Shown here in pieces: positions 19,997 to 37,872 of a stretch of 64,000 nucleotides of DNA. This DNA comes from Desulfitibacter sp. BRH_c19 (GTDB lineage: Bacteria; Bacillota; DSM-16504; Desulfitibacterales; Desulfitibacteraceae): NCBI GenBank assembly GCA_001515945.1, contig LOER01000036.1:1-64000 (forward strand). The letters are read 5' to 3'. Positions within the stretch are counted from its first letter, which is position 1. Each line of letters begins with the position of its first letter. The translations under genes and the position numbers were made by a program. The notes beneath the pieces are model-generated. The model was not told the DNA's origin and made no database searches. It worked only from the letters and a program-made list of their open reading frames with translations.

Positions 19997-20122
19997 AGTT
20001 ATATATAGTGTTTGTAGCTATTAGCAAAAAGCAGATTACTCTTATCTGTGAGAGGACATACCACAGTTGAAGGTAAAGTAAGTGTTTTGATATATTTGGC
20101 CATAAATTTAAGGAGGTTCACT

Positions 20123-20878
20123 ATGGACGACAAAAATACGACAAATTATAAATGAGGAAGTAAAGAGATCTCTACTAGTTTAGTAGATGAGAAAACCTAT
20201 ACCAACAAAGAAGATGCCGGGGGAGAAAGAAATGCATTGGATAGTCAAGAGAACCAATGGGAAGAAGCCTTTAAATGTACTGAAGGCATGTTTGGTAGTA
20301 AAGAAAGTTACTGTGCTAGAAAAGCTTTAGAAATCTTTAAAAGAGAAAAGTGTGAGTCTGTACTTGAATTAGGAGCTGGACAGGGAAGGGATACCATCTT
20401 TTTTATTAAAAATGGTTTAAGGGTAGATGCACTAGATTATAGTACTAAAGCCCTTGATACTATAGATAATAGAGCAAGACAGTTCAATTTATCAAGTAAT
20501 GTTAACACTTTGCGTTATGATATCAGAAAGCCTTTGCCGTTTGATGACAACACTTTTGATGCATGTTATTCACATATGTTGTATTGTATGGCCTTGAGTA
20601 CTGAAGAGCTGAAATTTTTATCAAATGAGATTCAGAGAGTATTAAAACCTAATGCTTTTAACATATATACTGTGAGAAACACTACTGATAAGCATTACAA
20701 AGTGGGGGCTCATAGAGGCGAGAGTATGTATCAAGCAGGAGATTTCATAGTTCATTTTTTTGACAAAGCTAAAATTAAAGATTTATCAGAAGGCTATGAA
20801 ATAGTTGAAATAGAAGACTTTGAAGAAGGTGATCTTCCTAGAAAACTATACTTTGTTGCAATTAGGAAAAAAGCTTAG
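20123..20878 (+). CDS. SAM-dependent methyltransferase, candidate selenoprotein (Sec at codon 11)
   Basis: The class I methyltransferase part is clear: LELGAGQGRDTIFF (SAM motif I) and ALDYS (motif II), 213 aa from a TTG at 20237. The same frame continues upstream without a break, except for one TGA at 20153-20155, to an ATG at 20123 that has a strong AAGGAGG 7 bases before it. Read as selenocysteine the protein is 251 aa and begins MDDKNTTNYK-U-GSKEIS. A hairpin suited to a bacterial SECIS follows the TGA. The alternative is a 10-codon leader peptide and translation from TTG 20237, which has only GGGGGAG at a longer spacing. The methyl acceptor is unknown. Confidence 0.6.
20156..20187 (+). 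promoter_or_regulatory. SECIS-like hairpin after in-frame TGA
   Basis: TCTACTA (20171-20177) pairs perfectly with TAGTAGA (20181-20187) around the loop GTT. The loop begins with G and lies 22 bases after the TGA. A 4-16 bp stem, a small loop with an early G, and 16-37 bases from UGA to loop are the published features of bacterial SECIS elements, and all three fit. Confidence 0.55.
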
Positions 20879-20888
20879 TAGGTCCGGT

Positions 20889-21115
20889 TTAAAGTTTGAA
20901 CTCATAAACCTTCTTGGATAGGTTTATGGCCAACTTAGCATATTCTGGATCCTTCTCGAATAAAATAGGGTAAAATTCTTTAATCATAGCGATATATGGA
21001 CCCTGATTGTGCCACTACATATTCACTATCTTTAAGGAATTCACGATTGTCTTGGCAACTGCCCGTGCATCATTCCAAAACTATCTAGTCTCTTTTTGTA
21101 AAGGTAAAATAATAC
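20889..21115 (-). pseudogene. Decayed gene fragment, C-terminal end of an unknown protein
   Basis: On the minus strand a protein-like frame reads DARAVAKTIVNSLKIVNM, stop, WHNQGPYIAMIKEFYPILFE and on to a TAA at 20889. Two TAG codons interrupt it, each where CAG (Gln) would be a one-base change, and no start is found. The family is not recognised. Apart from this, 20879-21204 holds nothing else I can identify. Confidence 0.45.
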
Positions 21116-21209
21116 TCATCTTAGATGGATTAGCAGCAATCTGCTAGAAGAAGCATCTTGACATAAACAGGTTATATACAATAGAATTATGGCAAACAGA
21201 ATATTAAAC

Positions 21210-21392
21210 AAACGGGTGAATGGGTTGGAAAATGGTACTTGTACCGACCGACGGGGCAAGGGTCTAATAGACTTGAAACTCTCAGGTGTTACCTTGCTAG
21301 GTGACGGAGACCATCTCAGGACGTACCTCTGGAGAGACTTGCATTGCAGGCGCCGAAGGATTAATTCTCTCAGGCAGAAGGACAGGGGAAGA
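21210..21392 (+). promoter_or_regulatory. Tandem glycine riboswitch
   Basis: The second aptamer (about 21320-21392) is textbook: GGAGAGACTT, GCGCCGAAGG, CTCTCAGGCAGAAGGACAGG, with P1 formed by CCTCTG (21326-21331) and CAGGGG (21383-21388). The first (about 21210-21312) is more divergent: CCGACGGGGCAAG, AACTCTCAGGT, a 6-bp GTTACC/GGTGAC hairpin, then GGAGACC. The tandem layout is that of cooperative or leader-linked glycine riboswitches. It controls the glycolate-oxidase-like operon at 21588. Confidence 0.88.
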
Positions 21393-21438
21393 GCAAAAAA
21401 TGTATACAATATACAGATATTGTTGTTTTGCTTTTTTT
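21392..21438 (+). terminator. First terminator-like hairpin after the glycine riboswitch
   Basis: AGCAAAA (21392-21398) pairs with TTTTGCT (21426-21432), with an inner hairpin CAATAT-ACAG-ATATTG (21407-21422), followed by a T-run. Its 5' arm begins right where the second aptamer P1 ends, so it could be the switching element. Confidence 0.5.
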
Positions 21439-21587: not shown

Positions 21588-22841
21588 ATGAACGAAGGAT
21601 TTATTACCCAGTTGATGAATATTTCGGAAGAAGACCAAGTTGAGAAAGTTCATGGTAATGTGGTATTTTTCCCTTATGATACTGGGGAAGTTAGTGCCGT
21701 GTTGAAGCTAGCTTATGAAAATGGAATCCAGATTTTTGTCCAGCAAAAGCCAGGTAATCGTGTAGAGCAACACTCTGGAAAGCTAGTAATTAATCTGGCT
21801 AAAATGGATACGTATTTTGAAATAGACAAAGAAAACTTAACAGCATCAGTCCATACTGGAATTACTCTGGACAGGTTTCAATCCAAACTTCTTGAGGAAG
21901 GCTTATACTTCCCACCTGTTTCTATTTGGGATTACGATGCTTTTGTGGCAACAGCCATTGCTACTAATGCTGTTGGTATTAACTCAGGAAAGTATGGAAG
22001 ATGGAGAGAGTATGTAGTTGGTATGGAGGCTGTCTTATCATCAGGAGAACTAATTGAGCTTGGGGGTAAAATTATTAAATATGTTTCAGGACTTGATCTA
22101 ATGAGCCTTTTTATAGGGTCTCAAAACCAGTTAGGGATTGTTTCAAAAGTGACAGTTCGTTTGCTTCCAAAACCAGAGGCAAAAAGGCTTCTTGTTTGTA
22201 GGTTTGCTTCTCTAGCTGATGCGGTAGCTGCTACTGATAGCCTAACACAAAGAGGATTAGCCCCAGCTCGTAATGAAATACTTTCCCCTAAGATAGCAGA
22301 CAAAATGGAGTTTTCCGGTAAAAGTAGTGGTCAGTTTGTAGTCTTAACTGAGGTAGAGGGGTTTTATGAATCACTAAGTCGTCAAGTGGCAGAAATAGAG
22401 GTAGCTTACAAAAAATTTGCTATTGAAACTGCTACAATAATTGAACACGAGGATCAGATTTATAGGATTTGGCAGAAATATTTTGATGCTGCTGATAGCT
22501 ATAAAAGCAATTCATATTATAATATTACAATTCTTCCTTCTGAGCTTCCAAGCTTAATGGGAACCCTGGAGAAGACTAAGAACGATTTGGATATAGACTT
22601 TGAAGCAATAATTCATACGAGCATTGGTAATATTGAGTTGTTTGTTGATATTCATGATATTGATAAACTAGAGGAGTTTAAGGATTCTTTAATGAAGGTT
22701 GTGCTTTTACTTGCTGGTAAAGTGGCTAGTAAAAAGATTGGAGTTGGTTCACATATCTCAACAACTGAGAAATTGGAAGAGGGCTTACGTGTTTTGTTTG
22801 ATCCGAAACAGATATTGGCAGGCAAGGGAGGTGGACAATAA
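21588..22841 (+). CDS. FAD-linked oxidase subunit, GlcE/GlcD-like
   Basis: A 417-aa protein of the FAD-linked oxidase (PCMH/VAO) family. The N-terminal FAD domain (about 20-200) includes KPGNRVEQHSGKLVINLAKM, the YGRWREYVVGMEAVLSSGE region and GLDLMSLFIGSQNQLGIVSKV. The C-terminal domain is typical of glycolate/lactate oxidases. It is more divergent than the next gene and lies where GlcE usually is. The three-gene unit resembles glycolate oxidase GlcDEF; D-lactate or another 2-hydroxyacid remains possible. Confidence 0.75.
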   Translation: MNEGFITQLMNISEEDQVEKVHGNVVFFPYDTGEVSAVLKLAYENGIQIFVQQKPGNRVEQHSGKLVINLAKMDTYFEIDKENLTASVHTGITLDRFQSKLLEEGLYFPPVSIWDYDAFVATAIATNAVGINSGKYGRWREYVVGMEAVLSSGELIELGGKIIKYVSGLDLMSLFIGSQNQLGIVSKVTVRLLPKPEAKRLLVCRFASLADAVAATDSLTQRGLAPARNEILSPKIADKMEFSGKSSGQFVVLTEVEGFYESLSRQVAEIEVAYKKFAIETATIIEHEDQIYRIWQKYFDAADSYKSNSYYNITILPSELPSLMGTLEKTKNDLDIDFEAIIHTSIGNIELFVDIHDIDKLEEFKDSLMKVVLLLAGKVASKKIGVGSHISTTEKLEEGLRVLFDPKQILAGKGGGQ

Positions 22842-24220
22842 TGCTCACATCAGCTGTTGTTGAAGAATTAAGAAGCATTGTAGGGGCTAAAAATACTTTA
22901 ACTGAAAAAGATGAATGTTTTGACTATGGGTATGATGCTACCCTAAAAGAGTATTCTGCTGATGCAGTTGTCTTCCCACGCAGTACAGAAGAGGTTGTGC
23001 AGATTATAAAACTAGCAAACAGGGAACAAATAGCGGTAATCTCAAGGGGAGCGGGAACAAACCTGAGTGGTGGCACAGTACCACATCAGGGGGGAGTAGT
23101 ATTAAATTTAACAAGAATGAATAGGGTTTTAGAAATAGATACCAAAAACAATTTGGCTGTAGTTGAGCCAGGAATTGTAAATAATGATTTTCAAGAGATC
23201 CTTGCACCTTATGGCTATTACTTTTCCCCTGACCCTGCTAGTATGAAGGTTTGTACTATTGGGGGGAATGTTGCCGAATGTGCAGGAGGGCCAAGGTGCT
23301 TAAAATACGGGGTGACCAGGGAATATATTCGAGGACTAGAGGTTGTATTGCCTTCGGGTGAGGTAGTGGTAACCGGAAGTAAAAACAGATTTACAAATGA
23401 TGGCTTCGACTTAACAAAATTAATGATAGCATCTGAGGGTATATTAGGTGTTTTTACGAAAATATTTGTAAGCATTACTCCAATGGGGGAAGCAAAAAAG
23501 ACGATGCTTTGTTCCTTTGATAAAATTGAGGATGCTAGTAAAACGGTTGCTAATATCATCGGTGAGGGGATTGTTCCTACTACACTAGAAATGATGGATA
23601 ATCTTCTTATCAATTGTGCTGAGGACCATACGAAAGTGGGTTTGCCTAGGGATGCTGCAGCCATTTTGTTGATAGAAGTGGATGGGTATAATGAGGATTT
23701 ACCCAGACAGGTAGAAACCATACGTGGGGTATGCAACAAAAATAATGTACGTGAATTCAAGGTTGCAGAATCTGCAGCAGAGGTTGATCAATTATGGGTT
23801 GCTAGAAGAACTGTAATAGGTGCAGTAGCACGGAGGAGACCGTCCTATTCAATGCAGGATGTTACTGTTCCAAGAAATCAAATGCCTGCAATCGTAAATA
23901 AAATAGTTGAAATCTCAGCTAAGTTTGATTTACCAATTGGTGTTCTAGCTCACGCAGGTGACGGAAACCTTCATCCTCTTGTCCTTTTTGATGAGCGTGA
24001 TAAGGTAGAAGTGGAAAAGGTCCATCAGGCAGAAGGTGAGATTTGTAAAGCAGCTCTTGAGCTTGGAGGTACTTTAAGTGGAGAGCATGGAATAGGTACT
24101 TTAAAACTACAGTATTTAGAGTGGGAGTTTTCCAAGGCTACTATTGATATTATGAAGGGAATTAAGAAGTTGTTTGATCCAAATAACATTTTAAACCCTG
24201 GAAAAGTAGTGGGGGTGTAG
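22841..24220 (+). CDS. glcD: Glycolate oxidase subunit GlcD-like
   Basis: FAD-linked 2-hydroxyacid dehydrogenase, 459 aa, full length. FAD-binding motifs are SRGAGTNLSGGTVP (near 67) and PASMKVCTIGGNVAECAGGP (near 133). The C-terminal substrate domain has HAGDGNLHPL (near 370) and SGEHGIG (near 407), whose histidines sit near the flavin. ATG overlaps the previous stop (TAATG). It oxidises glycolate to glyoxylate or a similar 2-hydroxyacid, passing electrons to the Fe-S subunit. Confidence 0.83.
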   Translation: MLTSAVVEELRSIVGAKNTLTEKDECFDYGYDATLKEYSADAVVFPRSTEEVVQIIKLANREQIAVISRGAGTNLSGGTVPHQGGVVLNLTRMNRVLEIDTKNNLAVVEPGIVNNDFQEILAPYGYYFSPDPASMKVCTIGGNVAECAGGPRCLKYGVTREYIRGLEVVLPSGEVVVTGSKNRFTNDGFDLTKLMIASEGILGVFTKIFVSITPMGEAKKTMLCSFDKIEDASKTVANIIGEGIVPTTLEMMDNLLINCAEDHTKVGLPRDAAAILLIEVDGYNEDLPRQVETIRGVCNKNNVREFKVAESAAEVDQLWVARRTVIGAVARRRPSYSMQDVTVPRNQMPAIVNKIVEISAKFDLPIGVLAHAGDGNLHPLVLFDERDKVEVEKVHQAEGEICKAALELGGTLSGEHGIGTLKLQYLEWEFSKATIDIMKGIKKLFDPNNILNPGKVVGV

Positions 24221-24222
24221 TT

Positions 24223-25464
24223 TTGAGCATATTAAATACAAAAGAGATATATGAAAAGTTAAATAGCTGTAATAAGTGTGGTTTTTGCCAGGCAACCTGC
24301 CGGGTGTACAAGGAGACACTAAATGAATTTAATTGTGCTAGAGGTAGAATTAAGCTTATAAAGGCTGTTGCAGATGGTGTTTTAGAACGGAATAGGTTTT
24401 ATGAGGATGCGATTAATAGTTGTACTTTATGCTTAGAATGTACCAAGACATGCCCTAGTGCTGTGCCAACGACACAATTAATATTGGCAGCCAGGCAGGA
24501 CTTAGCTCAGAAAAAAGGCTTGGGTTTTTCCAAAAGGATTGCGTTAAAAAGTGTTTTACCTAATAATTCTTTACGAAAGGTCTCCTTTAGTTCAGCTAAG
24601 ATGGTAAAAAACATGAAAAGATTCCATAAGTTTAGGGGTATTGATGTTGCTGGTATGCCAATTTCAGATGAGAGCTTTTTGGATATGGCACATAGAATTC
24701 CAAAGCTCCAAAATCCCAGACACAAGGTTGCATTCTTTGTAGGATGTATGCTCAACCATACTATGGCTGATACAGCATATAATCTTGTGAAAGTTCTTCA
24801 TGCAAATAACGTAGAGGTTGTTGTGCCAAAGGAACAGCGCTGTTGTGGGACCCCACAGCATGTATATGGTGATCTTGGTACAGTTTCTGCCTTGGCAAAG
24901 CATAATATTGATTTGTTCAATAAGCTAGAGGTTGATGCTATTATTATAGGTTGTGCATCTTGTGGTGGCATGCTAAAAACCTATGGTGATCATCTTCAGA
25001 CTAACGTGGACTTAAACGAAGAAGCTAAGAAATTTTCATCAAAAGTTAAAGATATTAATGAATACCTAGTTGATGAATTAAAAATTGATTTATCATTGAT
25101 GCAGGGTATATATTGTAAAGTCACTTATCATGATCCATGTCATTTAGTACGTGCTCAGAGTGTGAATGCACAACCAAGAAAAATATTAAAAGAGTTACCG
25201 GGAGTAGAATATAGTGAAATGCATAATGCTAGTAATTGTTGTGGAGCTGCAGGCATGTTCCAAGGCTATTTTCCTGAGATAGCTGTTCCTATTACTCAAA
25301 AAAAGATAGATGATATAATAAAAACTGGTGCAGATACAGTAATTACATCATGTCCAGCTTGTAAAAATAGGATTCAAGGCAGTTTAAATCTTGGTGGCCA
25401 CAAGCATAAAGTCCTTCACATTGTAGATTTACTTGCTAAAGCCTATGAATTGGAAAAGGGTTAG
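24223..25464 (+). CDS. glcF: Glycolate oxidase iron-sulfur subunit GlcF-like
   Basis: A 413-aa protein with two 4Fe-4S motifs at the N-terminus (CNKCGFCQATC and CTLCLECTKTCP, about 15-75). Two CCG domains (CCGTPQHVYG near 205, CCGAAGMFQG near 343) of the kind that bind non-cubane clusters in heterodisulfide-reductase-like proteins are also present. It takes electrons from GlcD/E toward the membrane pool or a flavoprotein. TTG start, 2 bases after glcD. Confidence 0.85.
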   Translation: MSILNTKEIYEKLNSCNKCGFCQATCRVYKETLNEFNCARGRIKLIKAVADGVLERNRFYEDAINSCTLCLECTKTCPSAVPTTQLILAARQDLAQKKGLGFSKRIALKSVLPNNSLRKVSFSSAKMVKNMKRFHKFRGIDVAGMPISDESFLDMAHRIPKLQNPRHKVAFFVGCMLNHTMADTAYNLVKVLHANNVEVVVPKEQRCCGTPQHVYGDLGTVSALAKHNIDLFNKLEVDAIIIGCASCGGMLKTYGDHLQTNVDLNEEAKKFSSKVKDINEYLVDELKIDLSLMQGIYCKVTYHDPCHLVRAQSVNAQPRKILKELPGVEYSEMHNASNCCGAAGMFQGYFPEIAVPITQKKIDDIIKTGADTVITSCPACKNRIQGSLNLGGHKHKVLHIVDLLAKAYELEKG

Positions 25465-37360: not shown

Positions 37361-37654
37361 GATTAGGCCTCCATTAGACTCGTTTAACTAAAGTTAAGAA
37401 ATTCCATGGTAATAGGAGATAGGGGCTTTTTCTCTAATACTTATGATTTCCATTCCCATTGTATCTATTATTTCAATAGAATTCAATAAAATTCACTAGG
37501 GGTCAGGCTTGACAAATTGACATTTCAATAAATGGCAAGTGAATTTACATTTCCTCAGATAAATCATGTTATTGTGGATGTTTCACTTTTAATTATGTTG
37601 CCCTTGTGTATTTGTACCTTATTGCTGTATAATATAAATAATTAAATACATTTG
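37361..37654. other. Intergenic region with probable promoter of the B12 operon
   Basis: TATAAT at 37628-37633 with TTGTGT (37604-37609) 18 bases upstream is the best sigma-A candidate just before the riboswitch. No gene is seen in this stretch. Confidence 0.45.
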
Positions 37655-37808
37655 AAAATTGGTGCCTATTATAGGTTAAAAGGGAATCAGGAACAAGCCT
37701 GAGCGGTCCCGCCACTGTAACCAGCTACAAACCGTGTCATAACCACTGAGAATTCGGGAAGGGATGCGGGGAGGATTATCTGGGAGCCAGGAAACCTGCC
37801 TGTTTTTA
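37655..37808 (+). promoter_or_regulatory. Cobalamin riboswitch
   Basis: Conserved blocks are present in order: GGTGCCT, AAAAGGGAATCAGG, GCGGTCCCGCCACTGTAA, GGGAAGGGATGCGGGG, and the B12 box GAGCCAGGAAACCTGCC (37785-37801). It binds adenosylcobalamin and would switch off the cbi/cob operon when B12 is plentiful. Confidence 0.95.
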
Positions 37809-37872
37809 GATTTTGAATGAAAGACCCCTCGAGGAAGGTGTGGTCAAATGTGGCAATTTTTAAGAATTTTTG

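Follow-up and report, generated by a model that had tools for sequence, protein, structure and literature searches.

Nearly all known selenoproteins have Cys homologs (PMC13188914), and the same work lists a SAM-dependent methyltransferase among the selenoproteins, namely ArsM (UxxG), a Sec-containing arsenite methyltransferase. The gene considered here lies in a window of 64,000 nucleotides (the whole stretch of DNA that was analysed) and probably encodes another methyltransferase selenoprotein. Its closest named family is MduS, the methyltransferase domain-containing double selenoprotein (NF045649), to which the query is related without being a member. Residues 41–250 match positions 6–215 of the MduS profile with 283.8 bits (E 1.6e-84). 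This score is below the 380-bit cut-off of the family, and both the C-terminal AhpD-like domain, with its CxxU motif, and the two Sec residues are missing; the query ends at TAG 20876, directly after the methyltransferase. In a phylogenetic tree, the query has a long branch, which counts against the Sec reading, and does not group with MduS, its place among the other relatives not being settled by the tree. Two further candidate identities were rejected. The query scores 18 bits against the ArsM profile NF008823 (cut-off 263) and has no UxxG motif. The tellurite methyltransferase TehB has the same fold and is among the nearest solved structures (about 22% identity), and the score against its profile, NF008405, is 33.4 bits, versus a cut-off of 218.

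The Selenocysteine Machinery of the Host

The draft genome of the host (3.85 Mb) carries selA, selB and the tRNA-Sec gene adjacent to one another on one contig (C47), and it also contains selD, so that SelA, SelB, tRNA-Sec and SelD are all encoded and the set of sel genes on which the proposal of a selenoprotein depended is present. Three formate dehydrogenase genes (fdhA) of the same genome carry a TGA in the context ARL-U-HS and grdB carries one in the context U-GTC, in all cases with SECIS-type hairpins. The sel genes, together with these TGA-containing genes, indicate that the host is a Sec decoder, whose own SECIS elements provide a standard for comparison. The genome has two selD genes (L129 and L130), each with an in-frame TGA.

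An Open Frame Interrupted by a Single TGA

The proposed full coding sequence (20123..20878, plus strand) would specify 251 residues, including Sec11, and terminates at TAG 20876–20878. Its ATG, at 20123, is preceded by the Shine–Dalgarno sequence AAGGAGGT (20110..20117, plus strand), an 8-nt match at good spacing, the two being separated by the 5-nt spacer TCACT. Between this ATG and TAG 20876, there is a single in-frame stop, TGA 20153 (20153..20155, plus strand), and the translated N-terminus reads MDDKNTTNYK-U-GSKEISTSLVDEKTYTNKEDAGGERNALDSQENQWEE... This TGA is the candidate Sec codon for residue 11, in view of the Sec machinery in the genome and of the SECIS-like hairpin located downstream. 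The first-pass annotation had started from an ATG with a Shine–Dalgarno sequence and a TGA as the only stop of the frame, and both the sequence and the reading of the frame bear this out: the UGA is in frame, within an otherwise open coding sequence that has its own start and ribosome-binding site. Past the TGA, the frame first offers a start at TTG 20237 (20237..20239, plus strand), so annotation pipelines would begin the protein at what is a conserved internal leucine (Leu39) and would lose residues 1–38, as had been foreseen.

A Hairpin of the Form Found in the Host's Own SECIS Elements

Downstream of the TGA lies the SECIS-like hairpin UCUACUA-GUU-UAGUAGA (20171..20187, plus strand), with arms at 20171–20177 and 20181–20187 and the loop GTT at 20178–20180. 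All 7 pairs are Watson–Crick, and the loop begins 22 nt past TGA 20153, in full agreement with the earlier description of a perfect 7-bp hairpin with a loop starting with G at that distance. The elements of the three fdhA genes and grdB of the host follow a narrow rule, the form N-G-[G/U]-N-N' with its 3-nt loop closed by a stem of 7–8 pairs (G-U allowed), and the candidate obeys it with 7 pairs and the core AGUUU. Its spacing of 22 nt counts against the Sec reading when compared with the 18–19 nt found in the host's own genes (GGUCU at 19 nt in fdhA, CGGUG at 18 nt in grdB). Both selD TGA sites fail the narrow rule, and the one in L129 has no hairpin fitting the simple, general bSECIS rule either, so neither rule is exhaustive.

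How often such a hairpin arises was estimated in 476 kb of the host genome, made up of 20 sampled 20-kb stretches, the window and the sel locus. Of the 16,077 TGAs in this background, 0.65% are followed by a stem of at least 7 Watson–Crick pairs with a G in the loop at 16–37 nt, and 0.32% by the narrow form with 7 pairs or more. When the same peptide was recoded synonymously, 2.7% of the recodings yielded at least 7 pairs. The general bSECIS rule was taken as a loop of 3–9 nt, a stem of 4–16 bp, a G in loop positions 1–2, a spacing of 16–37 nt and an energy of −7.5 kcal/mol or lower, the latter being the published bound (PMC13188914). The candidate conforms to it and is borderline in energy (−7.9 kcal/mol when folded over 55 nt, just within the bound, and −6.5 over 51 nt, outside it). 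The hairpin is AU-rich and reaches about −5.8 kcal/mol alone, which also counts against the Sec reading, and the folding energy of the surrounding stretch is ordinary (z = −0.13). In terms of free energy, the hairpin is ordinary; its SECIS form is what is rare. A terminator at this position was ruled out, there being no plus-strand terminator call at the site and no T run.

The site was picked from many windows in the first-pass annotation, and for this reason the chance figures weigh somewhat less. A blind scan of the same 476 kb limits this concern, within the host genome. The scan covered 154 TGAs, each with a run of 100 or more open codons behind it. An upstream Shine–Dalgarno match of at least 6 nt was found at 4 of them, the candidate included, and a hairpin of at least 6 pairs at 2, with at least 7 Watson–Crick pairs at the candidate only. 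Three of the 154 passed a loose joint filter for Shine–Dalgarno sequence and hairpin: a true fdhA, a weak site and the candidate, which was the best of the three on both counts.

Probable Translation of the N-Terminal Extension

The alternative that survives best, which we nevertheless regard as unlikely, is that of an ordinary methyltransferase starting at TTG 20237, in which case ATG 20123 would open a 10-residue leader terminated by an ordinary UGA, and the hairpin would be incidental or would have some local regulatory role. No start precedes this TTG downstream of the TGA, GGGGGAG lies 12 nt upstream of it, a well-initiated short leader (given the good ribosome-binding site) could exist, and the extension is absent from relatives. 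The Shine–Dalgarno match of the TTG is just 4 nt, however, and the hairpin and the codon usage upstream of the TTG would both have to be coincidences. As to the latter, codons 12–38 are coding-like (0.197 nats/codon, versus 0.093 in the gene body), which ranks them among the highest 6% of the intergenic stretches that are open; at the extension's length, chance alone leaves about one intergenic stretch in five open.

The comparison with relatives bears on the same question. Most of them, from many phyla, start near residues 28–34 and share the motif [DE]-K-[EN]-I-L-[ND]-x-Q, within which TTG 20237 corresponds to Leu39, a position at which about 24 of 28 relatives, after weighting, have Leu. 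A start of all homologs at the position of the TTG, with no conserved Cys upstream, would have spoken against the proposal; instead, the codon is a conserved internal one and most starts lie further upstream, which argues against initiation there. Residues 29–38 of the query still resemble the N-termini of relatives (p 0.0015 against random frames, 0.019 against composition-matched shuffles), and codons 32–40 (20216..20242, plus strand), which match these N-termini, form the first predicted helix of an AlphaFold2 model with a mean pLDDT of 86, in which residues 1–31 are below 50. A start at TTG 20237 would cut this predicted helix and so delete some of a conserved element. In the frame from the TGA up to TTG 20237, no ATG, GTG, TTG, CTG, ATT or ATA occurs, and a single ATC is found (20168, codon 16). 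Since relatives start further upstream, where the query has no usable start and yet continues to match them over codons 29–38, ribosomes most likely reach this segment from ATG 20123, by way of the UGA, as far as can be judged from the sequence comparison.

The Methyltransferase Body and Its Relatives

Residues 80–178 (20360..20656, plus strand) match a SAM-dependent methyltransferase domain (PF13649, E 8.5e-16), and the body keeps 65 of the 69 conserved positions of the family, as many as the relatives do; it is an intact class I SAM-dependent methyltransferase. A structure search returned a generic class I methyltransferase, with no indication of a substrate, and the gene neighborhoods of relatives are too varied to point to one, AhpD-like and peroxiredoxin genes adjoining the methyltransferase gene in some of them. 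Two Clostridium relatives of the methyltransferase (L041 and L046) have a C-terminal Cys-Cys.

Several other features were observed in the window. A decayed open frame on the minus strand (20882–21190) has WHNQGPYIAMIKEFYPILFEKDPEYAKLAINLSKKVYEFKL at its end and three in-frame stops, all of them TAG, and gives no Pfam match. A glycine riboswitch aptamer (Rfam RF00504) at 21319–21395 lies ahead of genes resembling an FAD/FeS operon of the glycolate-oxidase type (21588–25464). Further away, a cobalamin riboswitch (37643–37817) is followed downstream by a long run of cobalamin-biosynthesis genes.

The Search for a Cys or Sec Counterpart

The first-pass annotation had looked to homologs for a Cys or Sec at residue 11, and here the proposal found no support: among about 100 relatives, none has a residue aligned at that position, be it Cys or Sec, or an N-terminal extension comparable to that of the query. 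Two genomes of the same genus contain no ortholog at E 1e-30, and none with the same extension was found in about 1,300 genomes searched. The viral contigs searched contained no relative, and the plasmids searched contained only distant ones (at most 42% identity), none of them aligning upstream of residue 33. The extension has therefore been seen in the host genome only, and the finding rests on one genome.

These results have to be set against the idea that the longer protein is real, or was so until recently, and that the TGA arose recently by nonsense mutation or reflects an error of assembly, the gene being damaged or misread and devoid of Sec. The coding appearance of the extension, the long branch of the query and a site without a conserved Cys or Sec would all be in keeping with this explanation. 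It is made improbable by a body that retains as many conserved positions as those of its relatives and by a SECIS-type hairpin that is placed at the right distance, as happens after merely 0.3–0.65% of TGAs. Highly improbable is a full or nearly full protein made without Sec, either by another kind of UGA readthrough (by a near-cognate tRNA), of which SelB-independent cases are known in general, or from a non-standard start at the one ATC of the extension, since ATC starts are very rare and neither the hairpin nor the complete Sec machinery would be required.

A Putative Selenol Tail and Its Possible Role

On balance, the gene probably encodes a selenoprotein with an N-terminal selenol tail. 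The candidacy put forward by the first-pass annotation is strengthened by the sel genes, by the TGA-containing fdhA and grdB and by the matching SECIS form of the hairpin, and weakened by the lack of a homolog with Cys or Sec at residue 11. Under this selenoprotein reading, a class I SAM-dependent methyltransferase would be translated from ATG 20123, and the UGA at codon 11 would be decoded as Sec by the host SelB and tRNA-Sec, directed by the hairpin at 20171–20187. The product would have a disordered tail of ~31 residues with one Sec (NYK-U-GSKE), placed ahead of the conserved methyltransferase fold. The flexible selenol might then present to the methyltransferase, or bind, a soft substrate such as a metal, a metalloid or a redox-active small molecule, a role proposed because relatives have redox domains and tails that carry Sec or Cys. 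By analogy with these tails, the Lys-Sec-Gly context may have a redox or metal-binding function, as originally surmised.

A different role for the early Sec codon, doubtful at present, would be that of a selenium gate: at low selenium, the ribosome would stop after ten residues, whereas plentiful selenium would allow the methyltransferase to be made, perhaps as a means of clearing surplus selenium, or some other soft element, by methylation. Sec11 would in that case have a regulatory and not a catalytic function, and the missing Cys counterpart would be accounted for. If the selenoprotein reading is true, this would be a new selenoprotein, invisible to methods based on Cys/Sec pairs because it lacks a Cys homolog, in a methyltransferase family whose tails, at either terminus, carry Sec or Cys, and it would offer a direct test case for distinguishing tails that act as substrate-binding arms from selenium-dependent expression gates.

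Comparison with Known Systems

The query and MduS have homologous methyltransferase domains, and MduS is also a predicted selenoprotein. They differ in that the MduS-type relatives have Sec in the C-terminal AhpD-like domain and in the tail, while the query would have one Sec, in an N-terminal tail, and has no C-terminal domain. MduS-type proteins encoded in the genomes of other groups present GC[DE]xU and TUG tails, mostly followed by SECIS-like hairpins. Two methyltransferases of the family (L173 and L176) have no AhpD domain and end in a short C-terminal tail, GKTUGTU or GFTUGT, and are apparently tail-only relatives of MduS. They share with the query the combination of a methyltransferase and a short, putative Sec-Gly tail in the absence of AhpD, but their tail is C-terminal and that of the query (NYKUGSK) is N-terminal, only Sec-Gly being common to both. 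By a simple count, these two lack a strong hairpin, which makes their Sec less sure.

An in-frame TGA upstream of a methyltransferase, together with a SECIS-like hairpin, is likewise found in another relative (L045:2145-3215 and L156). There, a thioredoxin-like protein containing TVGFS-U-RMF, with a perfect SECIS-like hairpin of 10 bp, continues in frame into the methyltransferase; the TGA is the sole stop before the latter, as would fit either a fusion or an overlapping pair with a selenoprotein. Unlike in the query, the Sec belongs to a thioredoxin-like domain that spans at least some 95 residues and not to a short tail, and there is no evident similarity to the extension of the query. From these comparisons, we infer that the family uses thiol or selenol tails repeatedly, and that the query would carry one at the opposite end.
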